Under the pieces are notes generated by a model that was not told where the DNA came from, ran no database searches, and was given only the letters and a program-made list of their open reading frames with translations. Position numbers and translations under genes: made by a program. From Streptosporangiales bacterium (lineage in GTDB: Bacteria; Actinomycetota; Actinomycetes; Streptosporangiales; Streptosporangiaceae): a stretch of DNA of 56,861 nucleotides. Of the stretch, positions 13,388 through 44,840 are shown piece after piece (position 1 is the first letter of the stretch; each line of letters opens with the position of its first letter). The stretch spans positions 1 to 56,861 of the forward strand of contig WHSL01000009.1 of the NCBI GenBank assembly GCA_009380095.1, in the 5' to 3' direction.

Positions 13388-13405
13388 ACAATATCTCAAT
13401 ATTGT
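13388..13405. promoter_or_regulatory. TetR operator (perfect 7-4-7 inverted repeat)
   Basis: ACAATAT (13388-13394) and ATATTGT (13399-13405) flank four bases, in an AT-rich island seven bases upstream of the TetR start at 13381. Further ATTGT/ACAAT-like half-sites follow up to about 13425. Size, symmetry and location are typical of TetR autoregulatory operators. Confidence 0.75.
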
Positions 13406-13469
13406 TTCCAATATAAAGTTATTGTCACCGCGCACAGTGAGGCGCCGGCCGAACCGTCTCGCGGTGCGG

Positions 13470-31948: not shown

Positions 31949-33238
31949 TCACGCTCGATCGGACCCGCGTCCGGCGGCGGGGACGAGCCGTTCGAGCAGG
32001 GCGACGGCGTTGCGGACACCGTTCTCGTCGCGGATTCTCGTACCGAGTTCGGCTGCTCGCGCGGACATCGCCGTGTCGGTGGTCGCCCGGCGGATCGCGT
32101 CCGCGAGGTTCTCGGCCGTGAGACGCCGCTGGGGCAGTGGTTCCGGCGCCACCCCACTGGCCTTCGTGCGGCGGCCCCAGTACGGCTGGTCGGCGACGAA
32201 CGGGCAGACGACCTGCGGGCGGCCGGAGGCCAGGGCGGCGGCGGTGGTGCCTCCGCCGCCGTGATGGACGATCGCCGCCATCCGCGGGAACAACCAGTCG
32301 TGCGGCGCCTGGTCGAGGATAAGGACCCGATCGGTGTCGATGAGGGCGTCGATGCCACCCCAGCCGGTGACGAGTACGGCACGGACGCCGGCGAGGCGAG
32401 CGGCGTCGGTGACGATGCGACCGACGCGGGCGGGTTCGGTACCGGCCATGCTGCCGAATCCGATGTGGACCGGTGGGTCGCCGGCATCCAGAAAGGTGCT
32501 GAGCCGTTCCGAGGGCGTCCAGCCCTGGGTCGCCGGGAGGAACCAGAAGCCGGTCGTATGGGTCCAGCTCGGATACTCCACCGGTGTGGGCAGAATGTGC
32601 TCGCTGAATGCCTGCAACATCGTGACCGGGCGCCCGTCCGGTGCACGCAGGGCATCGTTCTGGTGCGGGCGCCTCGGCAGGCCGAGTGTCTCGGTCCGCC
32701 ACCGGGCGCCGCTGGCGACGAGTGCCCGCAGGACAAGGCCGTTCACCCGGTAGCTGGTCCGATTGAGCGCCTTCGGGATGCCGAACGGGATCATCGGGCT
32801 CGGGAACGATCGGGTGGGCACCCAGCCGGGTTGCAACCCGACCGCAACGGCCGGGACACCCAGTTTCTCGGCCAGGTGCCGCACCGGGGAGTTGATCGGA
32901 TGGACGACGATGTCCACGTCGTCGGCGGGCACCGCGGCGATCTCGTCGTAGACCATTCGCAGCTCCGCCTTCGCACGCGCCATCAGCCGGACCGCGGTGA
33001 GCTTGCCCCGCAGCCCCCGGTAGTTGGTCTCGATCGCCCTCCGGACCTCCGGGTCGTCCATGTCGTTCAGGTCGTCGGACAGCGGCGCGAACGGCACACC
33101 GTACGGCTGGGCCAGCGACGCCGATCCTTCCGGAGCGCCCAACAGAACGTCGTGCCCGGCCTCCCGCAAGGCATGGGCGAGCGCGACGTACGGCTGAACG
33201 TCACCACGGGTGCCGTGCGTGACGATGAGGGCCTTCAT
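31949..33238 (-). CDS. UGT-type glycosyltransferase (GT1/sterol glucosyltransferase-like)
   Basis: This 429-residue GT-B enzyme has an N-terminal acceptor domain with MKALIVTHGTRGDVQPYVALAHALREAGHDV. Its C-terminal nucleotide-sugar domain carries PPVHIGFGSMAG and HHGGGGTTAAALASGRPQVV followed by PFVADQPYWGRR. This resembles macrolide and sterol/flavonoid glycosyltransferases that use UDP- or TDP-sugars. The ATG at 33238 is chosen because GGAAGGAG lies about ten bases upstream. The frame is open further and fuses in frame to a TetR N-terminus. No aglycone pathway lies nearby, so xenobiotic or antibiotic inactivation is a reasonable but untested role. Confidence 0.85.
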   Translation of the reverse strand: MKALIVTHGTRGDVQPYVALAHALREAGHDVLLGAPEGSASLAQPYGVPFAPLSDDLNDMDDPEVRRAIETNYRGLRGKLTAVRLMARAKAELRMVYDEIAAVPADDVDIVVHPINSPVRHLAEKLGVPAVAVGLQPGWVPTRSFPSPMIPFGIPKALNRTSYRVNGLVLRALVASGARWRTETLGLPRRPHQNDALRAPDGRPVTMLQAFSEHILPTPVEYPSWTHTTGFWFLPATQGWTPSERLSTFLDAGDPPVHIGFGSMAGTEPARVGRIVTDAARLAGVRAVLVTGWGGIDALIDTDRVLILDQAPHDWLFPRMAAIVHHGGGGTTAAALASGRPQVVCPFVADQPYWGRRTKASGVAPEPLPQRRLTAENLADAIRRATTDTAMSARAAELGTRIRDENGVRNAVALLERLVPAAGRGSDRA

Positions 33239-33436
33239 GATTCGCGCTCCTTCCTGACCGCGTCCCACGCGTCGAGCGCGCTTCGACCCGAAGTGATGCA
33301 CCACCAGCGCCGGCGAGACACCCGCATCGGCCGCGATCGCCCGGACCGTCACCCGGTTCACACCATCGCGACCGAACCGCTCCAAGGCCGCATCCCGGAT
33401 CCGCGTGCGAGCGCTCGACTCACCGGAAACCGACAC
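33239..33436 (-). pseudogene. TetR N-terminal remnant joined in frame to the glycosyltransferase
   Basis: From a GTG at 33436 the frame encodes a TetR helix-turn-helix (ARTRIRDAALERFG, VTVRAIAADAGVS, VVHHFGSK). It then breaks off into RARRVGRGQEGARI and runs without a stop into the glycosyltransferase. The 140-150-residue ligand domain is missing. An intact TetR gene upstream of the glycosyltransferase was probably shortened by a deletion that happened to keep frame. A translated HTH-glycosyltransferase fusion of about 495 residues is possible. AACAAATGTT near 33450 may be a leftover operator. Confidence 0.65.
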
Positions 33437-33541
33437 GACCCCGAGACTAAACAAATGTTCAGCCTGCCGCAATCAGAACCACATTGCTGAGCCTCGGAGC
33501 CAGGCGTCGGGCGACGGCGGCACTGCCGGCGGTCCGTGCCG

Positions 33542-34711
33542 TCACCGCATGGTGGCGAGGGTTTTGGGGGGTGGGGTCTGCTGGCTGCGGGGGCCGACGA
33601 CGATCTCGCCGTCGATGAGGATCATGGAGATGCCGGGGAGGTCGCCGAGGGCGAAGGACTCCAGGGCGTCGGTGGCCATCGACCCTTGGATGGGGCCGCA
33701 GATGACCAGGTCGGCGGGGTAACCGGCGGCGATCCGGCCGGCCTTGAGGCCATGGGCACGGGCCGTGTTGTCCGTGGCCGCCGCGACCGCGAGGACCGGG
33801 TCGAGGCCGCAGATCGAGGCGAGGAAGCAGACGTTGCGCATCATGCCGCGCGGGATGACGCCCGTACCGCCGGGCGTGTCGGTGCCGAGCGTGAGGCGGT
33901 CGAGGCGGCCGGCGGCGCGCAGCGCGTCCACCGCCACCAGGGTGGCGCGGTAGTTCATCGAGCTGCAGACCTCGTACGCGGCCTCGGGCAGGTCCGCGAC
34001 GAGCGCACGGATCTCGTCGTCGGGCATCGGGATGGGCCCGCCGGAGATGTGCGCGATCACATCGGGGCGTACGGCGCTGACGACCTCGTGACCGGCGACC
34101 CGGCTGGAGCCCGAGCGGGACACCCCGCCGGAGTGCATCTTCACGGTCATGCCGCGCTCGTGCGCCCAGGTCACGTACTGCTGCGCCTCGCCGTCGCCGA
34201 GCCGCCCCCAGTCGTAGAAGATGAACTTGAGCTGGTCCACGCCGGCCTCGGCGAGCTCGTCGAAGCGCGCCTGCGACATGCCGGGGACGAGCAGTACGGT
34301 CCCCACGCTCGCCTTCATCCCCGACGGCCGCAGCCGCCCGGTGGTCTCCTTGGCGGTGACCGCGAGCGCGGAGACGAGTGACGGGGTCAGCTCTTCGAAC
34401 GGCAGGCCCGGCACATGCAGCTCGCCCGCGGACACCATCGTCGTGGTCCCGCCGTGCACGTAGTTGGTGATCCAGCCGATGGAGTTCTGCGCGGGGGTCC
34501 ACTCACCGAACGTCGGGTGCACGTGGCCGTCGACGAGACCGGGCAGAACGGTGAGTCCGGCGGCGTCGATGACCCGGTCGGCCCCTGCGGGCTCCTCGCC
34601 GATCGCGGCGATCAGGCCGTCCTCGAGCACCAGTGAGGTGTCCCGGATGGGTGGTGAATCCGCAGGTCCGGGCACGAGCAGCCCGATTCCGGTGAGCACG
34701 GTGGTCGTCAA
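33542..34711 (-). CDS. Enamidase-like amidohydrolase
   Basis: This 389-residue amidohydrolase has the metal motif GLVDGHVHPTF and the later histidines MKMHSGGV and VIAHISGG, with Asp in LTLGTDTPGGTGV. The gene is close in layout to the enamidase branch, which opens tetrahydro-oxonicotinate (the cyclic enamide of nicotinate fermentation) to formylglutarate. NYRATLVAVDALRAAGRL and KAGRIAAGYPADLVI are typical of the fold's end. The start is a TTG at 34711 with AAGGGA eight bases upstream. It is divergent from the LLM oxidoreductase across the GGATCC operator region and is the only ring-opening hydrolase in the island. The precise cyclic amide is unknown. Confidence 0.8.
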   Translation of the reverse strand: MTTTVLTGIGLLVPGPADSPPIRDTSLVLEDGLIAAIGEEPAGADRVIDAAGLTVLPGLVDGHVHPTFGEWTPAQNSIGWITNYVHGGTTTMVSAGELHVPGLPFEELTPSLVSALAVTAKETTGRLRPSGMKASVGTVLLVPGMSQARFDELAEAGVDQLKFIFYDWGRLGDGEAQQYVTWAHERGMTVKMHSGGVSRSGSSRVAGHEVVSAVRPDVIAHISGGPIPMPDDEIRALVADLPEAAYEVCSSMNYRATLVAVDALRAAGRLDRLTLGTDTPGGTGVIPRGMMRNVCFLASICGLDPVLAVAAATDNTARAHGLKAGRIAAGYPADLVICGPIQGSMATDALESFALGDLPGISMILIDGEIVVGPRSQQTPPPKTLATMR

Positions 34712-34760: not shown

Positions 34761-34798
34761 CTATATACAGGATCCAATCTGGATCCAACATCCCTCGA
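34761..34798. promoter_or_regulatory. Divergent promoter/operator of the amidohydrolase and LLM genes
   Basis: Two GGATCC cores, at 34770-34775 and 34781-34786, lie 11 bases apart, each followed by AA (GGATCCAA). TATATA (34762-34767), read on the minus strand, can be the -10 of the amidohydrolase gene, so a bound regulator would sit over its promoter. The second core continues into ATCCCTCG, a string that reappears after the related site before the GntR gene. Confidence 0.55.
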
Positions 34799-34810
34799 AG
34801 GACCCGATAG

Positions 34811-35803
34811 ATGATCAGCAAGGGCGTCGGCCTTTTCCCCACCGAGTCCCCCGCCGTCATGCGGGAGTACACGCACCTGGCGGAGCGGCTGGGCTACGAC
34901 AACGTCTGGTTCGGCGACTCGCAGAACATCTGGCGCGAGTCCTCGGTGACCATGGGCGCCGCGGCGGTCGGTACGGACCGGATCGTCTTCGGCACCGGCG
35001 TCACCAACGCGGTGACCCGGCACCGCTCGGTGCTCGCCTCGTCCTGGGCGACGCTGTCCGAGCTGACCGGAGGCCGGGTCGCGCTGGGCATCGGCACCGG
35101 CGACTCGTCGCTGCGCACCATGGGCATGAAGCCGCTCCGGCTGGCCGAACTTGAGCGCGCGGTGGCGGAGCTGCGCGCGCTGTTCCGCGGCGAGGAGGTG
35201 CCGGAGCCGGACAGCGGGGCCGCGTACCACCTCAACTACGTCACCGAGCCCCGGCACATCCCGATCTACATCGCCGCCTCGGCACCCAAGATCCTCAAGC
35301 TCGCCGGGCGGATCGCGGACGGCGTGATCGTGCTGGTGGGGACGGCGTCGCAGTTCGTGAAGGCGGCGCTGGAGACGATCGAGGCGGGCGCCAGGGAGTC
35401 CGGGCGCAGCCTGTCCGACCTGCACATCGTGCTGTGGACGCCGACCGCGATCCGGGATGACGCCGAGGATGCGCGGGATCTCGTACGGGCCCAGGTCGCG
35501 CGGGTGGTGATCCGTCCGCTGCCCGCGCCGATCAGCCCGGGTGAGCAGGCCGCGGTGGACCGGATCCGGGAGACGTACGACTACTACCACCACATGGACA
35601 CCGAGGCGGGCCACGCCGACCTGGTGACCAAGGAGCTGATCGACCTCTTCTCGCTGGCCGGGACGCCGGAGGAGTGCCGGGCCCGGCTCAAGGAGATCGC
35701 CGGGTACGGGGTGGACCAGGTCTCCATCGTCCCGTTCGTGCCGCCCGGCGAGAGTCGCGCCCGAACCATCGAGACGTTCGCCGAGATCGCCGAGGGGCTG
35801 TAG
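34811..35803 (+). CDS. LLM-class flavin/F420-dependent oxidoreductase
   Basis: This 330-residue TIM-barrel luciferase-like protein has VWFGDSQNIWRESSVTMGAAA, VFGTGVTNAVTRHRSVLASSWATLSELTGGRV and GIGTGDSSLRTMG, close to the F420-binding mer/FGD branch. HIPIYIAASAPKILKLAGRIADGVI and FVPPGESRARTIETFAEI complete the family pattern. Whether it uses F420 (reductase or dehydrogenase) or FMNH2 (monooxygenase) is not decided by sequence alone. It is divergent from the amidohydrolase. In the island it can supply a ring reduction or oxygenation. GAAGGA lies just upstream of the ATG. Confidence 0.88.
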   Translation: MISKGVGLFPTESPAVMREYTHLAERLGYDNVWFGDSQNIWRESSVTMGAAAVGTDRIVFGTGVTNAVTRHRSVLASSWATLSELTGGRVALGIGTGDSSLRTMGMKPLRLAELERAVAELRALFRGEEVPEPDSGAAYHLNYVTEPRHIPIYIAASAPKILKLAGRIADGVIVLVGTASQFVKAALETIEAGARESGRSLSDLHIVLWTPTAIRDDAEDARDLVRAQVARVVIRPLPAPISPGEQAAVDRIRETYDYYHHMDTEAGHADLVTKELIDLFSLAGTPEECRARLKEIAGYGVDQVSIVPFVPPGESRARTIETFAEIAEGL

Positions 35804-35806
35804 GAC

Positions 35807-36304
35807 ATGCTCCACGAGCCCGCCGGCCCGGACCCCGACCACGGCCGGGATCCAGGATCCGGCATGCCGGATGCCGCGGTCCCGCTCCCCCGCCCCGGCG
35901 ACGACGTCCCCGGCGCCCCACCCCCACTCCGCGGCACCCGACCACGCACCCCGGCCGAACCGAACCCCTCACTCGCCACCCCGCCGCGCGACATGGGCCA
36001 CACCGCCCCGCCGCCAAGGGTGGAGCCGTCACCGGACGATCGGCGGGAGCCGGCCACACGGCGCGAGCCGGGTCGGAGGGGGGCGGTTGCGTCGGCCGGG
36101 ATCGGCGGTGCGACATTTCCCCTGGCTGCGACCGCTCTCGCCGTGGCCGCCGGTTACCTCGTGATCCGCCGGCTCCGCCACGGCCATAGGCCATGCGGCC
36201 ACGACCCTGGCCAGGACCACGGCCAGGACCACGGCCACGGTCTCGGCCACCAGGGCCACCAGGCCCCCAAGGGCCGCCGCGACCGCGGCCCGAACACGCG
36301 TTAG
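35807..36304 (+). CDS. Hypothetical Pro-rich protein with one membrane segment and His-rich tail
   Basis: This 165-residue open frame starts four bases after the LLM stop. The first 90 residues are Pro/Arg-rich and probably disordered. A hydrophobic stretch (AVASAGIGGATFPLAATALAVAAGYLVI, shown here only by its ends near residues 93-120) could cross the membrane. The C-terminus is rich in His/Gly/Asp (HGHRPCGHDPGQDHGQDHGHG), suggesting metal binding. A GGATCC pair lies inside it (35848-35860). No family is recognised. It may be a real cluster member, or chance reading through a repetitive spacer of the 550-base gap before the transporter. Confidence 0.35.
   Translation: MLHEPAGPDPDHGRDPGSGMPDAAVPLPRPGDDVPGAPPPLRGTRPRTPAEPNPSLATPPRDMGHTAPPPRVEPSPDDRREPATRREPGRRGAVASAGIGGATFPLAATALAVAAGYLVIRRLRHGHRPCGHDPGQDHGQDHGHGLGHQGHQAPKGRRDRGPNTR
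35848..35860. promoter_or_regulatory. GGATCC pair downstream of the LLM gene
   Basis: GGATCC at 35848-35853 and again at 35855-35860 form the same 7-base spacing as the site before the GntR gene (44129-44141). It is 45 bases past the LLM stop and about 500 bases before the transporter genes, so it could be a third regulator site. Chance occurrence cannot be excluded. Confidence 0.35.
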
Positions 36305-36354
36305 GACGTCTCGCCCCGACCCCCCGTACCCCCCGAAGCCCCCAGGAGGCCACC

Positions 36355-37350
36355 GTGAGACTGCTCAGAAGCGGGCTGACCCGCCCGATCGCGTTGCTCG
36401 CGCTGACCGCGGCGCTCGGCACGTCCGCCGCGTGCGGGCCGGCCGAGAGCGAGAGCGCGCAGCCGACGAAGAAGCTGCGGATCGCCGCGACCGGCGCCGA
36501 CAGCCTGCCGTTCATGGCGATCCTGCAGGTCGCCGTCGACAAGGGCTGGTTCAAGGAGAAGGGACTCGACGTCTCGCTGTTCTCCGGCGGCGGCGGCGGC
36601 AACACGCTCCGCGTCGCCAGCAGCGGCGACGCCGACATGGCCATCGCGGGCAACACCTCGGTGGTGATGGCGGCCCGCCGCGCCGGCTCCGACCTCAAGA
36701 TCGTCGCCCCCTGGTTCCAGGTGAACGACTTCTACTGGATCACCGCCAAGGACGGCGTGGACTTCAAGAAGGCCAAGCTCGGCTTCTCCTCCGCGGGCTC
36801 GACCACCGAGCTCAGCGTGAAGGCGTTGCAGAAGAAGTATCCCGGCATCTCGACCCAGGGTGTCGGGGCCGAGGGCGACAACTGGGCGGCCGCCAAGGCC
36901 GGGCGGATCGACGCCGGCTGGGCGATGCACCCGTTCGTCACCGAGGCCGAGCAGAAGGACAAGGCCAAGAGGCTGATCGCGGCCCGCGACCACATCGGCG
37001 ACTTCCCCGCCGACCTCGTCGCGGTCAACGAGGAGTACGCCGCCGCCAACAAGGACAACCTGACCGCGTTCTTCACCGTCGTGGACCGGGCCTTCGACTA
37101 CGTCGTACAGGAGCCGGAGAAGGCCGCGGCCGACCTGGCCCCGCTGCTCGAGCTCGACGAGGAGGTCATGGTCAAGGCGCTGAAGGACACGCCTGAGCCG
37201 GCGAAGGCGTACTCGCTCAAGGTCGATCCGCAGGGGCTGAAGAACCTCTCGGACCTGATGGTCCAGACGGGCCAGCTCAAGGAGCCGATCGACTGGGCGA
37301 AGTCGCTCGACCAGAGCTACCTGCCCGCGGACGCGCGCGCGAAGTTCTGA
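36355..37350 (+). CDS. NMT1/SsuA-type ABC transporter substrate-binding lipoprotein
   Basis: This 331-residue secreted lipoprotein has a signal sequence ending TSAACGP. The NitT/TauT-type binding fold is marked by ILQVAVDKGWFKEKGLDV, GDADMAIAGNTSVV, KLGFSSAGSTTELSVKAL and VNEEYAAANKDNLTAFFTVVD. The start is GTG 36355, five bases after a perfect AGGAGG (36344-36349). Members carry sulfonates, nitrate, thiamin precursors or aromatic and heterocyclic acids. In this island it probably brings in the compound oxidised by the molybdenum hydroxylase. It is the first gene of a tight operon, nine bases before the ATPase. Confidence 0.88.
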   Translation: MRLLRSGLTRPIALLALTAALGTSAACGPAESESAQPTKKLRIAATGADSLPFMAILQVAVDKGWFKEKGLDVSLFSGGGGGNTLRVASSGDADMAIAGNTSVVMAARRAGSDLKIVAPWFQVNDFYWITAKDGVDFKKAKLGFSSAGSTTELSVKALQKKYPGISTQGVGAEGDNWAAAKAGRIDAGWAMHPFVTEAEQKDKAKRLIAARDHIGDFPADLVAVNEEYAAANKDNLTAFFTVVDRAFDYVVQEPEKAAADLAPLLELDEEVMVKALKDTPEPAKAYSLKVDPQGLKNLSDLMVQTGQLKEPIDWAKSLDQSYLPADARAKF

Positions 37351-37359
37351 GGGGGAACC

Positions 37360-38172
37360 GTGACCGGAATCAGCATCCACGAGCTCGGCGTGGCGTTCAG
37401 CGCCAAGGACGGCCGGGTGATCGCCGTGGACGGCGTCACCCAGGAGGTGCCGGAACGCGGCTTCGTCTCGATCGTCGGCCCCAGCGGCTGCGGCAAGTCG
37501 ACGCTGCTCTCGGTGATCGCCGGCCTGTACGCGCCGACGTCCGGCCACGTCGAGGTCGGCGGCCGCCGGGTGACCGGGCCGGACCGCGCGGTCGGCGTGA
37601 TGTTCCAGGAGGACTCCACGCTGCCGTGGAAGACCGTGCTGGAGAACGTCCGGTTCCCGTTGCAGGTGGCGAAGGTCCCGAAGAGCGAGCAGCTGACACG
37701 GGCGCAGCAGGCCATCGACCTGGTCGGCCTCGGCGGCTTCGAACGGCGCCACCCGGCGGAGCTGTCCGGCGGCATGCGCCAGCGGGTGGCGCTGGCCCGT
37801 ACGCTCGCGATGCGCCCGTCGGTGATGCTGATGGACGAGCCGTTCGCCGCGCTCGACCAGCAGACCCGGCTGCTGCTCGGCGCCGAGGTGCTGCGCATCT
37901 GGCGGGAGACGCACCAGACCGTGCTGTTCGTGACCCACGACATCTCCGAGGCGATCCTGCTCTCTCAGCAGGTCTGGGTGATGTCGTACCGGCCCGGCAG
38001 AATCATCGACGTCGTCGACGTGGACCTGCCGGAGGACCGGGACGCCTCCGTGGTCGCCACGCCCGCCTTCAACGCGCTGCAGAACCGGGTCTGGGAGGTG
38101 CTTCAGGCCGAGTCGATGCGCGGCTTCGCGCAGGAGAACGCGGTGCCGGCCTCAGGCGTGCCGGCCTCATGA
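37360..38172 (+). CDS. ABC transporter ATPase (SsuB/TauB type)
   Basis: This 270-residue nucleotide-binding protein has Walker [10 protein letters not shown], the Q-loop [17 protein letters not shown], signature [13 protein letters not shown], Walker [13 protein letters not shown] and H-loop FVTHDISEA, all intact. The [11 protein letters not shown] sequence is typical for NitT/TauT-type importers. It starts with a GTG at 37360 and its stop overlaps the next start by four bases (ATGA at 38169-38172). It energises uptake through the two following permeases. Confidence 0.93.
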
Positions 38173-39002
38173 CCGTACGGACCAAACCCCCCGCCTCCCG
38201 GAAGGCGACGGCCCTGCCCAAGGCCCGGCGTACGGTCCCCGGGCTGATCGGCGCGGTCAGCATCGCCGCCACCGTGGGCTGGATCGTGCTCGGCGGGATC
38301 CTCGCCGAGGCGGGCGTACGCGCCGGCTGGTGGGAGCCGGACGTGCTGCCCGCGCCGTCGGAGATCCTGCCGGTCACCGCCGAGCTGCTCCGCTCGCCGG
38401 ATTTCGCGCCGGACGCCCTCCGTACGCTGCAGGAGCTGGTCTTCTCCTGCCTGTTCGGGGTGGCCGCCGGGCTGATCGTGGGCGTCGGCTTCTGGAAGGC
38501 GCCGGGCGTGGGCCGGGTCTTCGAGCCGTACCTGGTGTCGTTCTACGCGGTGCCGCTGGTGCTGTTCTATCCGGTGTCCATCGTGCTGATCGGCATCAAC
38601 CAGTGGTCGGTGATCACGCTGGCGTCGATCATGACGGCGGTGCCGGTGGTGCTGAACACCTGGATGGGGCTGCGCAGCGTGCCACCGGTCTACCTGAGGC
38701 TCGCCGCCTCCATCCGGTGCTCCCCCGCGCAGACGCTGTTCCGCGTGGCGATGCCGGCCGCGGCGCCGTACGTCTTCGCCGGCGTGCGGCTCGGCGTGGT
38801 GTACGCGCTGATCGGCACGATCGCGATGGAGTTCACCACCGCCCAGGCCGGGCTCGGCTACCAGATCCGCTACCTGTACGAGTCGTTCGACGCCGTCGGC
38901 ATGTACGCCTACATCGTCGTGGTGCTCGGCGCGTCGGTGCTGCTCACCGCGGTGCTCGAGGGCGCCGAACGGCTCCTGCTGCGCCGGAGGACCGTCCGAT
39001 GA
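38169..39002 (+). CDS. ABC transporter permease 1 (SsuC/TauC type)
   Basis: This 277-residue inner-membrane protein has about six helices and the BPD-transp-1 signature region [33 protein letters not shown] (EAA-like loop that contacts the ATPase). Its start overlaps the ATPase stop (ATGA) and its stop overlaps the next permease start (ATGA at 38999-39002). Together with permease 2 it suggests a heterodimeric pore, unlike the usual single-permease SsuABC arrangement. Confidence 0.9.
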
Positions 39003-39751
39003 CCGCAACCGTTTCGCAGCCTCCCGCAGGCGGCCGGGTGCTCGCCGGATCCGTCGGCGTGGCCGTGGCGGCGGTGGTGCTCTGGGAGATCGGCTCGCAT
39101 CTGAGCTTCGTGATCCCGCCCCCGCTGGACACGGCGCGCGCCCTGGCCGCCGACCTCACCGACGCGCTCTTCCTCGTCAACCTGCGCGAGACCATGCTCG
39201 CCGCGACGGCCGCGTTCCTGCTGTCCGCCGCGATCGGCGGGCTGATCGGGCTGGGGCTCGGGCTCTCCCGGGTGGCCCGGCTGCTGCTCTCGCCGATCGT
39301 CACGGCCATGAACGGCGTGCCCAAGATCGTTCTGTACCCGATCCTGCTCCCGGTCTTCCACCTCGGGTACGGGTCCAAGATCGTCATGGGCGTGCTGTTC
39401 GGCCTGTTCCCCGTGCTGATCAACGTGATGACCGGAGTCCAGCAGATCCCCTCGGTGTACTGGCGGCTGGCCCGCTCGGTCCGGGCGGGCCGGTGGCAGA
39501 CGCTGCGACACATCCTGCTCCCGGCGATCCGCGGCCCGCTGCTCACCGGCGTACGGCTGGCGATCAGCCTCTCGCTGGTCGGCGTGGTGCTTTCGGAGTT
39601 CTTCGCCACCAAGTACGGCCTCGGCCGGGTGGTGCTGCGCTCCTACTCGGCCGGCGACTACCCGAACATGATGGGCACGATCCTGCTGCTCATCGCGGTC
39701 TCGTTCGTGCTCTCGCTACTGCTCTGGCGGATGGAACGGAGGGTCAGGTGA
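38999..39751 (+). CDS. ABC transporter permease 2 (SsuC/TauC type)
   Basis: This 250-residue permease is a paralogue of permease 1 with the EAA loop WRLARSVRAGRWQTLRHILLPAIRGPLLTGVRL and a VPKIVLYPILLPVFHLGYGSKI segment typical of NitT/TauT permeases. Its last two helices end in RMERRVR. It is linked at both ends by four-base overlaps, to permease 1 and to the molybdenum hydroxylase large subunit (GTGA at 39748-39751). Transporter and enzyme are therefore made from one transcript. Confidence 0.9.
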   Translation: MTATVSQPPAGGRVLAGSVGVAVAAVVLWEIGSHLSFVIPPPLDTARALAADLTDALFLVNLRETMLAATAAFLLSAAIGGLIGLGLGLSRVARLLLSPIVTAMNGVPKIVLYPILLPVFHLGYGSKIVMGVLFGLFPVLINVMTGVQQIPSVYWRLARSVRAGRWQTLRHILLPAIRGPLLTGVRLAISLSLVGVVLSEFFATKYGLGRVVLRSYSAGDYPNMMGTILLLIAVSFVLSLLLWRMERRVR

Positions 39752-42084
39752 CGGCGGTCGGCACGCCCCTGCCACGCCGCGAGGACGCCCGGATGCTCGC
39801 CGGGCGCGGCGTCTTCCTCGCCGATCTGGCGGGGCCGGGCACGCTGCACGCGGCGTTCCTGCGCAGCACCCGGCCGCACGCGCTGATCCACGGCGTGGAG
39901 ACGGCCGCGGCGGCGGAGCTGCCGGGGGTGACCGCCGTGCTCACCGCGGCGGACCTCGGCGCCGCCACGGTCCCGCTGCTGACCAGGCCGGACGAGCGGT
40001 TCGTTGAGGCGGCCGCGTTCGCCATGCGGGATCCGCGGCTGCCCTGCCTGGCGACCGGCCGGGTCCGGTACGTGGGCGAGCCGATCGCGCTCGTTCTCGC
40101 CGAGTCCCGGCACGTCGCGGAGGACGCGCTGGAGCTCATCGAGGTCGCGTACACCGATCTGGAGCCGGTCCTGGACCCGGCGCTCGCGCTCGGTGATGAC
40201 GCGCCGGTGCTCCACCCCCACCTCGAGGACAACCTCGCCGCCCGGATCGCCTGCGCGTTCGGCGACGTCGCGGCGGGCCACGCGGCCGCCGCCGTCACCG
40301 TCGAGGAGACGTACCGGATGGGGCGGCACGGCGGCGTGCCGCTGGAGTGCCGGGGCGTGATGGCCCGGCCGGACCGCCGTACCGGCCGGCTCGAGGTGTG
40401 GACCTCCTCGCAGATCCCGCACCAGGTACGGACCGCGATCTGCGCGGCCACCGGCTGGCCGGAGGACCGGGTCCGGGTCGCCGTGCCCGACGTGGGCGGC
40501 GGCTTCGGCACCAAGGCCAACGTGTACGGCGAGGAGATCGCGGTGGCGATCGCCGCGGAGCGGACCGGCCGCGAGGTCGTCTGGGTGGAGGACCGCGCGG
40601 AGCACCTCGTCGCCGCCGCGCACGGCCGCGACCAGGTGCACCGGGCGCGGCTCTCGGTGGACGCCGAGGGCCGCATCCTGGCCTGGGAGGACGAGTTCCT
40701 GGTGGACGTGGGGGCGGGCAGCCTGTGGGTGGCGGGGATCGTCGCCAACACCGCGATCCACCTGGCGGGGCCGTACCGGATCCCGGCGTTCCACGTGCGG
40801 GGGCGCGCTGCGTTCACGAACAAGACGCTGGTCGCGCAGTACCGGGGTGCCGGGCGGCCGGAGGCGTGTTTCGCGCTGGAGCGCAGCCTCGACCACGCGG
40901 CGCGGCGGCTCGGGCTCTCGCCCGCGAAGATCCGGCGCCGCAACCTGCTCACCGGGGACGACCTGCCGTATCCGGTGCCGCTGCCGTACCGGGACGGGGT
41001 GCCGATCAGCTACGACGGCGCGGACTTCGCGGCCTGCCTGGAGGACTGCCTGCGGCTCGTCCCCGAGGCGGAGGTACGGCGGCTGCGCGCGGAGCACCCC
41101 GAGCTGGCCATCGGGGTCGGGGTGGCCTGCTACGTCGAGGCCACCGGGCGCGGGCCGTACGAGAGCGGGCGTGTCGGCCTCACCACCTCGGGCGACTTCG
41201 CCGTGGCCACCGGCGCGGCGGCCGCCGGGCAGGGGCACGAGACCACGCTCGCGCAGGTCGCGGCGGATGCGCTCGGCGTCGACGTGTGCCGGGTACGGGC
41301 CTGCGGCGGCGACACCGACGCGGTGCCGTACGGGGTCGGCACGTTCGCCTCCCGGTCCGCCGTGCTCGCCGGGTCCGCCGTACACGAGGCGGCCGGGCGG
41401 CTCCGCGCGCGGGCCCGCGCGCTCGCCGCGCGGCTGCTGGACGTGCCCGCGGAGAAGCTGGAGACGGAGCCGGACGGGTTCGTGCTCGCCGGTACCGGAA
41501 CGCGGGTGAGCTGGCGGGACCTCGCCGCCGAGCTGGCCCCCGGCGGGCGGCTGGAGCTGGAGCCAGCGCTCGACGAGCCGGCCCTGTTCCGACCGCCCAC
41601 GGTGACCTGGACGATGGGCGCGCACGTCGCCGTGGCCGGGGTGGATCCGGAGACCGGGCTGGTGCGGGTGCTGCGCTACGGGGTGGCGCACGAGGGCGGG
41701 GTGGAGATCAATCCGATGATCGTGGACGGGCAGATCAAGGGTGGTGTGGCGCAGGGCATCGGCGGGGCGCTGTTGGAGGAGTACACGTACTCCGACACCG
41801 GTCAGCCCACCTCCGGGACGTTCGCGGACTACCTGCTGCCGGGGACCTGCGAGGTGCCGGCGGTCGCCGTACGGCATCGGCACGCCGACACCGACCGCAA
41901 CCCGCTGAACGTACGGGGGGTCGGCGAGAGCGGGACGATCGCGGCGTATCCGGCGCTGGCCCAGGCCGTTGACGACGCCCTCGGCGCCGGCGGGCCCGGG
42001 GTCACCGCCACCCCCATCACCCCGTCCCGCGTGCTGGCCCTCGCGGAGGACGTCCCCGCGCGGGACGCCGAGGCGGCGGCATGA
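39748..42084 (+). CDS. Molybdenum hydroxylase large subunit (xanthine dehydrogenase family, MoCo-binding)
   Basis: This 778-residue catalytic subunit contains VPDVGGGFGTKANVYGEE, YRGAGRPEACFALERSLDHAA and GQGHETTLAQVAADALGV in the cofactor-binding domains. The catalytic glutamate is in the C-terminal GVGESGTIAAYPAL. It belongs to the broad group of N-heterocycle and aldehyde hydroxylases (nicotinate, isoquinoline, xanthine). The CO-dehydrogenase active-loop motif AYRCSFR is absent. The start is a GTG overlapping the permease 2 stop by four bases. It carries MCD molybdopterin and receives water oxygen for ring hydroxylation. Confidence 0.93.
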   Translation: MTAVGTPLPRREDARMLAGRGVFLADLAGPGTLHAAFLRSTRPHALIHGVETAAAAELPGVTAVLTAADLGAATVPLLTRPDERFVEAAAFAMRDPRLPCLATGRVRYVGEPIALVLAESRHVAEDALELIEVAYTDLEPVLDPALALGDDAPVLHPHLEDNLAARIACAFGDVAAGHAAAAVTVEETYRMGRHGGVPLECRGVMARPDRRTGRLEVWTSSQIPHQVRTAICAATGWPEDRVRVAVPDVGGGFGTKANVYGEEIAVAIAAERTGREVVWVEDRAEHLVAAAHGRDQVHRARLSVDAEGRILAWEDEFLVDVGAGSLWVAGIVANTAIHLAGPYRIPAFHVRGRAAFTNKTLVAQYRGAGRPEACFALERSLDHAARRLGLSPAKIRRRNLLTGDDLPYPVPLPYRDGVPISYDGADFAACLEDCLRLVPEAEVRRLRAEHPELAIGVGVACYVEATGRGPYESGRVGLTTSGDFAVATGAAAAGQGHETTLAQVAADALGVDVCRVRACGGDTDAVPYGVGTFASRSAVLAGSAVHEAAGRLRARARALAARLLDVPAEKLETEPDGFVLAGTGTRVSWRDLAAELAPGGRLELEPALDEPALFRPPTVTWTMGAHVAVAGVDPETGLVRVLRYGVAHEGGVEINPMIVDGQIKGGVAQGIGGALLEEYTYSDTGQPTSGTFADYLLPGTCEVPAVAVRHRHADTDRNPLNVRGVGESGTIAAYPALAQAVDDALGAGGPGVTATPITPSRVLALAEDVPARDAEAAA

Positions 42085-42181
42085 GGCCTCCGAGCCGGGC
42101 GGCCTGTTCGCGCCGTCCCCGAGTGTCCGGCATGCCCGGCGTGTTCCGCGTGTCCCGCGTGTCCGGCGTCGGGAGCGGCGT

Positions 42182-43303
42182 GTGAAGGCGGCGGCGTTCG
42201 ACTACCTGCGGCCCGGGGACGTGGCGGAGGCGCTGTGCGCGCTGCGGGACGATCCGGAGGCCAAGGTGATCGCGGGCGGGCAGAGCCTGGTGCCGATGAT
42301 GAACCTGCGGCTCGCCAGGCCCGGCACGCTCGTCGACATCGGCGGCCTGCCCGGGCTGGACCGGATCATCGAGGACACGGACTCGCTGATCATCGGCGCG
42401 CTGGTCCGGCACCGCACGCTGGAACGGGACCCGCTCGTCGCGGCCCGTACGCCGCTGCTCGCCGAGGCCGCGACGCACATCGGGCACCCCGGGATCCGCA
42501 ACCGCGGCACGCTCGGCGGCACGCTCGCGCACGCCGACCCCGCCGCCGAACTGCCGCTGGCCATGGTCACCCTGGACGCCACGATCCACGTGGAGTCCAT
42601 CGCGCGCGGCAAGCGGGCCGTCCCCGCTGCGGAGTTCTTCGCCTCGTACTTCACCACCGCGCTGGGCGAGGACGAACTCGTCACCTGGGTACGGGTGCCC
42701 GCACTCGGCCCGCGGCAGGGCTGGGGCTTCCACGAGTTCGCCCGCCGCCACGGCGACTTCGCCCTGGCCGGCGCGGCCGTGCTCATGGAGACCACCCCGG
42801 ACGGCCGCGTCGCCGGGGCCCGGGCCGCCCTCATGGCAGTCGGCGACAAGCCCCTCCTCGTCGCCGAGGAGGGCACCTTCGCCGCCGGTGCTCCGCTCGC
42901 CGGGCACGCCGACACCGCCGGGCACGCCCGCACCGCCAGGGACGCCGGCACCCCGCTCGCCCGGGACGCCGACACCGCCGGGCACGCCGACACCGCCGGG
43001 CACGCCGACACCGCCAGGGACGCCGGCACCCCGCTCGCCCGGGACGCCGACACCGCCGGTACCCCGATCGCCGGGGGCGTCGGCACCGATGCGGCCCTCG
43101 CGGGTGACGGAGCAGGGGTGCCGGGGCCGCGACTGTGGGCGAAGGCCGCCGACGCCTGGACGGCGGGCCTGCCCGCGGCCGAGGATCCGGCCCTCACCCG
43201 GCGCCTCGCGGGCGCGGCGCTGCGCAGGGCGCTCGCCGACGCGTACACCCGGGCACCCGGGCACCCGGGCACCCGGGCACGCGGGATGAAGGCGGACGGA
43301 TGA
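42182..43303 (+). CDS. Molybdenum hydroxylase medium (FAD) subunit with repeat insertion
   Basis: This 373-residue FAD subunit has the two flavin motifs, VIAGGQSLVPMMNLRLA and THIGHPGIRNRGTLGGTLAHADPAAELP, then the C-terminal CO_deh_flav_C domain (from FARRHGDFALAGAAV). Family members have about 290 residues. This one is longer because residues 240-291 consist of in-frame tandem repeats (AGHADT, ARDAGT, PLARDADT units) inserted in the C-terminal domain. Its tail is a Gly/His/Pro repeat. It starts at GTG 42182, 97 bases after the large subunit. It passes electrons from the 2Fe-2S clusters to an external acceptor. Confidence 0.9.
   Translation: MKAAAFDYLRPGDVAEALCALRDDPEAKVIAGGQSLVPMMNLRLARPGTLVDIGGLPGLDRIIEDTDSLIIGALVRHRTLERDPLVAARTPLLAEAATHIGHPGIRNRGTLGGTLAHADPAAELPLAMVTLDATIHVESIARGKRAVPAAEFFASYFTTALGEDELVTWVRVPALGPRQGWGFHEFARRHGDFALAGAAVLMETTPDGRVAGARAALMAVGDKPLLVAEEGTFAAGAPLAGHADTAGHARTARDAGTPLARDADTAGHADTAGHADTARDAGTPLARDADTAGTPIAGGVGTDAALAGDGAGVPGPRLWAKAADAWTAGLPAAEDPALTRRLAGAALRRALADAYTRAPGHPGTRARGMKADG
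42899..43054 (+). repeat. In-frame 18/24/78-bp tandem repeats in the FAD-subunit gene
   Basis: The 18-base unit GCCGGGCACGCCGACACC recurs at 42899, 42977 and 42995, with variants between. A block of 78 bases (26 codons) is repeated once (42935 onward and 43013 onward). All unit lengths are multiples of three, so the reading frame is kept. The array encodes residues 240-291. Confidence 0.85.
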
Positions 43304-43329
43304 CGTCGTGATGAAGGGATCGGGGATTC

Positions 43330-43857
43330 GTGAGTGATGTGCGGGTGGCGTTGCGGGTCAACGGGCGCGCGGTGGAGGCCACGGTTCCGGCGCGGCTCGG
43401 GCTGGCCGACTTCCTGCGGGACCGGCTCGGGCTGACCGGCACCCATCTGGGCTGTGAGCACGGCGTGTGCGGCGCGTGCACGGTGCTGCTGGACGGCATC
43501 GCCGTACGGGCCTGCCTGATGTTCGCCGCGCAGGCCGAGGGCGGGGACCTGTGGACGATCGAGGGGCTGCACGCGGACGGCCGGATCGCCGACCTGCAGG
43601 AGGCGATGGCCCGGCACCACGGGTTGCAGTGCGGCTTCTGCACACCCGGATTCCTGGTGACGGCCGCCGAGTTGCTGGCCGAAGGCGGCCGTCCTTCGGA
43701 GCAGGAGGTACGCGAGGCACTTTCCGGAAATGTCTGCCGTTGCACCGGATACCAGGGCATCGTGTCGGCCGTGCTCGAGACCGCCCGGCACCGCGCGGAC
43801 CGCGGGGACGGTCCGCGTGACGGCGAGGGGGCCGGGCGGTCTCTCCCCGCCGGCTGA
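43330..43857 (+). CDS. Molybdenum hydroxylase small subunit with two 2Fe-2S clusters
   Basis: This 175-residue electron-transfer subunit has a plant-ferredoxin-type cluster bound by Cys42, Cys47, Cys50 and Cys62 (LGCEHGVCGACTVLLDG). The second cluster, in the helical domain, is bound by Cys101, Cys104, Cys136 and Cys138 (QCGFCTPG, CRCTGYQGI). All eight ligands are present. The start is a GTG at 43330. The order large-medium-small is reversed relative to many cox/xdh operons. A short Gly/Asp-rich tail follows the last domain. It completes a three-subunit hydroxylase. Confidence 0.95.
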   Translation: MSDVRVALRVNGRAVEATVPARLGLADFLRDRLGLTGTHLGCEHGVCGACTVLLDGIAVRACLMFAAQAEGGDLWTIEGLHADGRIADLQEAMARHHGLQCGFCTPGFLVTAAELLAEGGRPSEQEVREALSGNVCRCTGYQGIVSAVLETARHRADRGDGPRDGEGAGRSLPAG

Positions 43858-43920
43858 CGACCCCGCCCGCCAGGCCAACGGGCACGGCGCCCCGCCGCCG
43901 CCGTGGGGGGCGCCCCCGCC

Positions 43921-44020
43921 CGAAAGGCCCGCAGCACCGCGCGAAAGGCCCGCAGCATCACCGGGCGAAAGGCCCGCAGCACCCACCGCCCGAAGGCCCG
44001 CAGCACCACCGCCCGAAGGG
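43921..44020. repeat. 21-25-bp direct repeats between the hydroxylase and the GntR gene
   Basis: CGAAAGGCCCGCAGCA recurs at 43921, 43942 and 43966, and as CGAAGGCCCGCAGCA at 43991, with spacing of 21, 24 and 25 bases. The variable spacing and absence of unique spacers argue against CRISPR. The stretch 43858-44177 otherwise contains only the operator-like site at 44129 and no gene. It may be a decayed coding repeat or a transcription attenuating region. Confidence 0.65.
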
Positions 44021-44128
44021 CCCCTTCGCCCGGCGGGCCCGCCTCGCCACCGCCCGGCGGCCTTCTTCCCCGAGGGGCCCCCGCCGCCCAGGTGCCCCGC
44101 CTCCGCGCGTCGGCGGAGCCCTAAGCTT

Positions 44129-44148
44129 GGATCCTGGATTCAATCCCT
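44129..44148. promoter_or_regulatory. Operator-like GGATCC/GGATTC pair before the GntR regulator gene
   Basis: GGATCC (44129-44134) and GGATTC (44136-44141) are seven bases apart, followed by AATCCCTCG. The same arrangement, a GGAT-C core followed by AA and TCCCTCG, occurs at the amidohydrolase/LLM divergent promoter. The site lies 37 bases before the RBS of the regulator, which suggests autoregulation and shared control of the island. Confidence 0.5.
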
Positions 44149-44177
44149 CGCCCCAAACCGCGCCCTCGAGGAGTCAC

Positions 44178-44840
44178 GTGACGATCGCCGGCCCGTACCA
44201 GCGGCCCCCGACCGCGCAGCAGGCGGTGCTCGCCGAGCTCCGCCGGATGATCAGGCACGGCGAGCTCCCACCCGGCACCCAGCTGACGCAGGAGGCCCTG
44301 GCCGGCCGGCTCGGCGTGAGCCGCGTACCGGTGCGCGAGGCGCTGAAGATCCTGCAGGGCGAGGGCCAGGTCGTGCACACCCCGCACAGCGGGTACGCGG
44401 TCGCCAAGCTCGACTTCGACGACCTGCTGGAGATCAAGCGGCTCCGCGACATCCTGGAGGCCGAGGCCGTACGCCGGTCGATGCGCCGCTTCACCGATGG
44501 CGACGAGACACGGATGGCGGACGCGCTGCGCCGGATGGCCGACGCCGGGGACGACGTGGGCGCGCTCAACGTGGCGCACCGCGAGTTCCACTTCTGCGTC
44601 TTCCGCCCCGCGGGCATGCCACGCCTGCTGCGCATGCTCGACCAGCTCTGGGACTCCTCGGAGGCCTACCAGTCACTCCGCCACGCCGACTCCCACGGCC
44701 GCGAGGGCTCCTTCGAGGAACACTCCCAGATCTTCGAGGCCGCCCGCGCCCGCGACGCCTCCGCCCTCGTCAAACTCCTCAACAAACACCGCCAGCACAC
44801 CATCGAGGAACTCCGCCCCGTCCTTCGCGACCACCGCTGA
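44178..44840 (+). CDS. GntR/FadR-family (FCD) transcriptional regulator
   Basis: This 220-residue regulator has an N-terminal winged helix (about 10-75; ELRRMIRHGELPPGTQLTQEALAGRLGVSRVPVREAL) and a C-terminal FCD effector domain (about 85-205; RLRDILEAEAVRR, VAHREFHFCVF and EHSQIFEAARARDA with metal/ligand histidines). The GTG at 44178 has GAGGAG five bases upstream, better than the in-frame ATG at 44127, which overlaps the operator-like site. It is the only regulator in the island and follows the hydroxylase genes on the same strand. Likely ligand: the substrate or an acid intermediate. Confidence 0.9.
   Translation: MTIAGPYQRPPTAQQAVLAELRRMIRHGELPPGTQLTQEALAGRLGVSRVPVREALKILQGEGQVVHTPHSGYAVAKLDFDDLLEIKRLRDILEAEAVRRSMRRFTDGDETRMADALRRMADAGDDVGALNVAHREFHFCVFRPAGMPRLLRMLDQLWDSSEAYQSLRHADSHGREGSFEEHSQIFEAARARDASALVKLLNKHRQHTIEELRPVLRDHR

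Follow-up and report, generated by a model that had tools for sequence, protein, structure and literature searches.

The nicotinate pathway of Eubacterium barkeri is anaerobic. Its enamidase reaction is the hydrolysis of 6-oxo-1,4,5,6-tetrahydronicotinate (excerpts of PMC7356986). Operators of the FadR (FCD) subfamily of GntR regulators are described, in the excerpts available from Suvorova et al. 2015 (PMC4494728), as palindromes, with one monomer recognising each half. In a divergon, both operons are usually served by a single site close to its middle, weaker extra half-sites have been reported 7–12 nt from the site centre, and the published consensus is TKGT...ACMA, with the GT and AC boxes 2–3 nt apart (PMC4494728, same excerpts). 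Here, we describe a catabolic island in a 56,861-nt stretch of DNA, the window, from a Streptosporangiales bacterium (Streptosporangiaceae; GCA_009380095.1, contig WHSL01000009.1, positions 1–56,861, plus strand). The island combines genes for an enamidase-like amidohydrolase, a luciferase-like monooxygenase (LLM)-class oxidoreductase, an ATP-binding cassette (ABC) transporter with its substrate-binding protein (SBP), a molybdenum hydroxylase and a GntR/FCD regulator. Two 17-bp palindromes, one in the divergent enamidase/LLM promoter and one directly before the regulator gene, are predicted from the sequence and are most likely genuine binding sites of the adjacent GntR/FadR-type protein.

Two palindromes containing GGATCC

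A sequence-only reading of the window had drawn attention to close pairs of GGATCC cores at three places, here called sites 1 (34770/34781), 2 (35848/35855) and 3 (44129/44136), and had proposed that a single FadR-type regulator could bind all of them. GGATCC is found at 34770, 34781, 35848, 35855 and 44129; the third pair is made up of GGATCC and, at 44136, GGATTC. Pairs 2 and 3 have the same 7-base spacing, as had been pointed out. Single GGATCC cores occur at the expected number in the window (26 seen, 26.93 in shuffles), and pairs no more than 12 bases apart are seen twice (sites 1 and 2) against an expectation of 0.09, with none of 200 simulated windows reaching two. The underlying unit is a 17-bp imperfect palindrome of the approximate form TTGGATnC-n-rTATnCAA, and GGATCC is part of one of its half-sites. 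The elements are as follows, with ranks referring to the matrix described below.

34761–34777, minus strand: operator 1, TTGGATCC-T-GTATATAG (read from 34777 to 34761, TTGGATCCTGTATATAG), near the middle of the divergent enamidase/LLM promoter; rank 2 of 56,845
44127–44143, plus strand: operator 3, TTGGATCC-T-GGATTCAA (in full, TTGGATCCTGGATTCAA), directly before the GntR gene, presumed autoregulatory; rank 1 of 56,845
34779–34788, plus strand: additional box, CTGGATCCAA, which repeats the operator-1 half-site in direct orientation at a distance of 11 bp and has one mismatch to TTGGATCCAA; Infernal match at 34780–34792

Counted as the difference between coordinates, the distance from site 1 to the start codon is 50 bp for enamidase and 34 bp for LLM; from site 3 to the GntR start it is 35 bp, which leaves 34 bases between the end of the palindrome and that codon. 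As a full 17-mer, the additional box scores weakly (rank 16 at 34772–34788, rank 12 at 34779–34795); it is a possible extra half-site. With the FadR-subfamily operators as excerpted from PMC4494728, the window sites share the palindromic form, the mid-divergon position of site 1 and perhaps the extra half-site in the form of the adjacent box. In contrast to the TKGT/ACMA consensus given there, their arms are TTGG/CCAA-like, and neither TTGGATCC-T-GTATATAG nor TTGGATCC-T-GGATTCAA matches it. Among the literature matches listed on FadR/GntR operators, TTGGAT appears in none, and those for TTGGATCCAA are unrelated by title.

The sequence-only reading had also described AA and TCCCTCG after the first and third pairs. 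Both are present: AA follows the core at sites 1 and 3 (GGATCCAA and GGATTCAA), and TCCCTCG begins at 34791 and 44144, which are two of the four places where it is found on the plus strand of the window; the minus strand has two further copies. The distance of TCCCTCG from AA is not shared, differing by 2 bases between the two sites. Of the 25 islands from other genomes introduced below, one has TCCCTCG, on either strand, no more than 200 bp away from the start of LLM or GntR. The 8-mer ATCCCTCG follows both operators at a near-equal offset (34790–34797 and 44143–44150), these being two of its three plus-strand occurrences in the window; it is possibly an extra half-box or a trace of shared ancestry of the two promoters.

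Conservation and rarity of the palindrome

Homologs of the LLM protein were found in 3/341 genomes of the family (E ≤1e-60), 4/345 of the order (E ≤1e-90) and 3/394 of the class (E ≤1e-90), each of these counts including the source genome itself, and in 20/198 genomes of one distant genus, g73, these search sets overlapping. A search with the GntR protein yielded a locus in Knoellia aerolata. In each of the 25 non-window islands compared (21 of g73, plus G161, G269, G343 and Knoellia), genes for GntR, LLM, SBP, ATPase and permease are present, and the GntR gene lies upstream of the LLM gene. An enamidase gene is seen in six; in four it adjoins GntR, and in the two 20-kb g73 loci it follows the LLM start at a distance of about 9.6 kb. 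Dehydrogenase large-subunit DNA is seen in eight and all three subunits in five. The other 19 g73 stretches stop about 4–5 kb after the LLM start, and any enamidase or dehydrogenase genes further on would lie outside them. RidA-like genes (23/25) and CoxG-like genes (24/25) lie between GntR and LLM (e.g. L038, 2794–3927); neither was found in the window.

The palindrome is clear at 23 LLM promoters and 22 GntR promoters of the 25 islands. In g73, the LLM and the GntR promoter each carry a 17-mer with a TTGGAT arm in 21/21 islands, for instance TTGGATACGATATCCAA at LLM promoters and TTGGATAC-T-CTATGCGA or close variants at GntR promoters. In the Knoellia island (L038), TTGTATACGAGATACAA precedes LLM and TTGGATACGATATAAAG lies in the promoter of the enamidase gene, and L058 has TTGTATAC sites at both the LLM and the GntR promoter; the TTGTATAC-form sites of L038 and L058 are nearer to the FadR-subfamily consensus, as excerpted from PMC4494728, than the window sites are. 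The same operator is thus found at the LLM and regulator promoters of orthologous islands, the pattern of a conserved regulon. The comparison of orthologous intergenic regions that the sequence-only reading had called for therefore bears it out for sites 1 and 3, whose palindrome is kept at the LLM and mostly also at the GntR promoters elsewhere. Hence, one FadR/FCD-type regulator plausibly controls both.

The matrix, a symmetric one, was built from 17 different 17-mers taken from outside the window and does not include the weak matches at the GntR promoters of L038, L055 and L056. The seed consensus for gathering the island sites was written after the window motif had been seen, a bias that is limited by subset matrices, though these were collected with the same seed. 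Among 56,845 window positions, this matrix from other genomes gives its highest score to site 3 (20.2 bits) and its second highest to site 1 (18.1 bits). Across 60 simulations, the mean number of matches per simulated window at the given score was 0.017 for site 1, 0.0 for site 3 and 9.7 for site 2, and in 2000 local-composition simulations the site-1 score was reached in 0.35% and the site-3 score in none. Column-permuted matrices placed their top two positions in both promoters in 0/1000 cases and in at least one of them in 60/1000. With four alternative matrices of five or six distinct sites each (g73 LLM sites, the same minus the GGATCC site, g73 GntR sites, and promoters of homologous regulators), site 3 always ranked first, while site 1 ranked 2, 2, 4 and 3 and site 2 ranked 33, 104, 12 and 9, respectively. 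An Infernal sequence model of 21 other-genome sites reported, at E ≤10 in the window, only 44127–44142, 34764 and 34780, corresponding to site 3, site 1 and the adjacent box.

Close matches are also rare in the 6.09-Mb genome. The core TTGGATNCNNNATA has one exact match, site 1, and 20 rows at up to one mismatch as against 4 for a reversed-pattern control; TTGGATNCNNNATNYAA is exact at two places, site 3 and C135:8693, the latter with a matrix score of 16.0. For sites 1 and 3, neither a lack of conservation nor an equal frequency elsewhere is seen, the two outcomes that had been named in advance as speaking against the motif. Genome-wide matrix scores cover pattern hits only, and further sites may therefore be missed. 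Of the hits, C14:4503–4519 (L108) is a candidate third site, TTGGATGAAATATATGA (matrix 16.4), flanked by an FAA_hydrolase-domain gene and a CoA-transferase III gene, the latter being a candidate third regulon target. A related site, TTGACTTCTTAATCCAA, lies at C99:12538–12554 (L113) between an FCD regulator gene (L139) and an acyl-CoA dehydrogenase gene. Beyond the island, the motif thus recurs at the weaker C14 site, and related FCD regulators of other genomes share it.

Site 2 fares differently, and the proposal of one regulator for all three places holds for sites 1 and 3 only.

35848–35860, plus strand: site 2, GGATCCAGGATCC, codons 14–18 (R-D-P-G-S), in frame in the small open reading frame (ORF) below
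35807–36304, plus strand: small proline-rich ORF with one hydrophobic stretch (by eye) and a PGAPP motif, 3' extent uncertain, between the LLM and SBP genes

The 35848 pair is coding sequence and lies outside the regulon. A matching small ORF after LLM (proline-rich, PGAPP, C-terminal hydrophobic stretch by eye) is found in 22 of the 25 other islands, including L038, L055, L058 and L061, the remaining three being uncaught by the pattern; a Pfam search with the window ORF gave no match. The DNA around site 2 is a run of GGATCC/GGATGCC-like repeats, and these repeats are a simpler cause of the 35848/35855 pair. That all three pairs are operators of one regulon, with site 2 controlling the transporter operon separately, is quite unlikely. 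Site 2 does share the 7-base spacing of site 3, it is an exact match to GNATCCNGGATNC, a pattern found at seven places in the genome (three of them in the window), its pair exceeds the simple chance model, and L061 and L062 carry a further operator-like site directly before the SBP start (six of the 25 LLM–SBP gaps were viewed). However, its 17-mer (35846–35862) lacks the TTG/CAA arms and ranks 14th with a score of 4.05, a level at which the 9.7 matches given above are expected by chance; it falls to the rank of 104 when the matrix is built without the g73 site that contains GGATCC, and the Infernal model did not report it in the window at E ≤10. Its position differs too: it belongs to the reading frame of a conserved ORF and precedes the SBP start by about 500 bp, whereas the L061 and L062 sites stand directly before theirs. 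We discarded GNATCCNGGATNC as a motif in its own right, since the conserved TTG/CAA arms are missing from it; besides sites 2 and 3, it picks up a match at 33390 within a TetR-like frame.

The regulator and its relatives

The protein encoded at 44178 has the domain make-up of the FCD/FadR subfamily, an N-terminal GntR winged helix followed by a C-terminal FCD domain, both above the Pfam cut-off. We hold with good confidence that it binds both palindromes as a dimer and represses its own gene and the enamidase and LLM operons. The FCD-domain GntR (44178–44840) would sit as a dimer on 34761–34777 and 44127–44143 and, since the palindromes lie 34–50 bp from start codons, would there block RNA polymerase. 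From site 1, near the middle of the divergent promoter, it would repress the enamidase gene and the LLM–SBP–ABC–dehydrogenase operon together, and from site 3 its own gene. GntR would be freed from its operators by a compound of the pathway, either the substrate or an intermediate and perhaps a carboxylated N-heterocycle; we infer that repression relieved by a pathway metabolite is the likeliest mode of control. Binding, repression and an effector are the most likely reading of the sites, and so is the 44178 protein, rather than another FCD protein, as the binder.

Relatives of the window GntR were found at E ≤1e-30 in 29/200 family genomes, own included, and 28 homologous regulator loci were compared (the L055 regulator was counted with the islands instead). 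Ten of these (e.g. L010, L014, L020 and L037) have, within 300 bp upstream, a TTGGATCC site with a matrix score of at least 18, all containing GGATCC (e.g. TTGGATCCAATATACAT). Like the window GntR, with which they are 45–51% identical, these ten are FCD regulators from the same bacterial family and have an SRVP segment where it was read; unlike it, they lie outside this island. The L037 regulator, the only one of the ten for which a neighbour was tested, adjoins a CoA-transferase III gene. In the segment that we take to be the recognition helix, the window GntR reads SRVPVREALK and most of these relatives SR[V/I]P[V/I/L]REALK. MSMEG_5174 was considered as the regulator and set aside, as it belongs to the YtrA subfamily according to the available excerpts of PMC9309504.

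Several observations pull the other way. The window GntR gene stands at the far end of its operon, as opposed to its place upstream of LLM in the other islands. In L038, no site was found directly before GntR (best 9/16), and L055 and L056 carry only weak candidates (12/16 and 11/16). The Infernal E-values in the window (2.7–3.7) are by themselves not significant, and the whole-genome Infernal search gave no match at E ≤10. Unrelated AT-rich DNA at 13395–13418 takes matrix ranks 3 and 4 and, at rank 2, outscores site 1 with two of the four alternative matrices. A strong upstream site is missing from 18 of the 28 homologous regulators, and the closest relatives in the family search (45–52% identity), L037 among them, are not island regulators. 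In the tree, the window GntR falls outside the 24-row island clade, next to the second L058 GntR, on a long branch with warnings, and orthology to the island regulator is therefore not claimed; a regulator exchange within the FCD group is possible. Among the 33 FCD matches of the genome, the protein L139 combines SRIPVREALK with the nearby TTGACTTCTTAATCCAA site.

Two alternatives draw on these points. It is extremely unlikely that GGATCC in AT-rich promoter DNA merely resembles the palindrome by chance. The unenriched single GGATCC and the good scores of 13395–13418 would fit such a coincidence, but the first two ranks in the window go to sites 3 and 1 with a matrix made from other genomes, at scores that simulated windows reach rarely (site 1) or never (site 3), and no permuted matrix reproduces the placement. 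The 13395–13418 DNA itself forms an imperfect, AT-rich palindrome, CTCAATATTGTTTCCAATATAAAG, within what looks like a promoter, and is perhaps the operator of another regulator.

Rather unlikely, too, is the alternative that the palindromes are operators of a different FCD regulator and that the 44178 GntR acts elsewhere, for instance at the C14 CoA-transferase gene. The many FCD proteins of the genome and the position of the window GntR outside the main island clade would agree with it, as would TTGGATGAAATATATGA at C14:4503 before a CoA-transferase III gene, the type of gene that adjoins the homologous GntR of L037. However, the gene adjoining operator 3 is the window GntR gene, and the g73 islands have, without exception, a site before their own GntR gene. 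Moreover, the SRxP segment was readable in 17 of 30 loci (33 FCD matches), plus L125, and among these SRVPVREALK occurs in the window protein alone and SRIPVREALK in L139 alone.

Gene content and the predicted pathway

The genes of the island, the small ORF apart, are the following.

33542–34711, minus strand: enamidase-like amidohydrolase, TTG start; Pfam Amidohydro_1; PDB 2vun ENAMIDASE, E 8e-81, query residues 1–386 of 389
34811–35803, plus strand: LLM-class oxidoreductase, Pfam Bac_luciferase, F420-dependent type suggested
36355–37350, plus strand: NMT1/THI5-type SBP, start inferred from a signal-peptide-like N-terminus; Pfam NMT1 on 36307–37350; NCBIfam SsuA family, below cut-off
37360–38172, plus strand: ABC transporter ATPase, Pfam ABC_tran
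38169–39002 and 38999–39751, plus strand: two ABC permeases, NCBIfam ABC permease models, below cut-off
39748–43857, plus strand: molybdenum hydroxylase, xanthine/CO dehydrogenase family (large subunit 39748–42084, medium 42182–43303, small 43339–43857), NCBIfam, below equivalog cut-offs
44178–44840, plus strand: GntR/FCD transcriptional regulator, Pfam GntR 5.2e-16 and FCD 2.1e-23, presumed binder of operators 1 and 3

Beside the island, the minus-strand frame 31949–33472 joins a TetR helix-turn-helix (residues 25–66) to glycosyltransferase family 28 and EryCIII-like domains; it is either an unusual fusion or an artefact of the sequence or of the start site.

The only strong solved relative of the amidohydrolase is 2vun, which we take to be the Eubacterium barkeri enamidase and to which the protein is homologous over nearly its full length. 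The nearest solved structures to the LLM protein are those of F420-dependent Mer. Its best NCBIfam match, TIGR03842 (F420 LLM family), scores 184.2 bits against a cut-off of 295.45, and an F420 subfamily cut-off was reached by none of the best 25 of 28 NCBIfam matches. With a near full-length homolog of 2vun and a molybdenum hydroxylase, the island resembles the E. barkeri nicotinate pathway; in contrast to it, the role of companion reductase would here fall to an F420-like LLM protein. Taken together, these three enzymes suggest a reductive pathway for the degradation of N-heterocycles. Among the literature matches listed, on which this statement rests, no title describes an island of this composition.

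We tentatively propose, at less than even confidence, that the regulon serves an undescribed actinobacterial pathway in which an N-heterocycle is opened through hydroxylation by the molybdenum hydroxylase, F420H2-dependent ring reduction by the LLM protein and enamide hydrolysis by the enamidase, with RidA- and CoxG-like helpers in most islands. Such a pathway would correspond to the anaerobic nicotinate pathway but run aerobically and be powered by F420, its operator drifting between TTGTAT and TTGGAT along with the regulator. What began as a guess at a motif becomes a testable two-operator regulon, and the 17-bp palindrome provides a handle, at the level of DNA, on an enamidase/LLM/molybdenum-hydroxylase island shared by several lineages of actinobacteria. 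The ligand of the regulator would indicate the substrate of the pathway, and the contrast between TTGTAT and TTGGAT islands offers a natural set for studying how specificity changes in FCD regulators.

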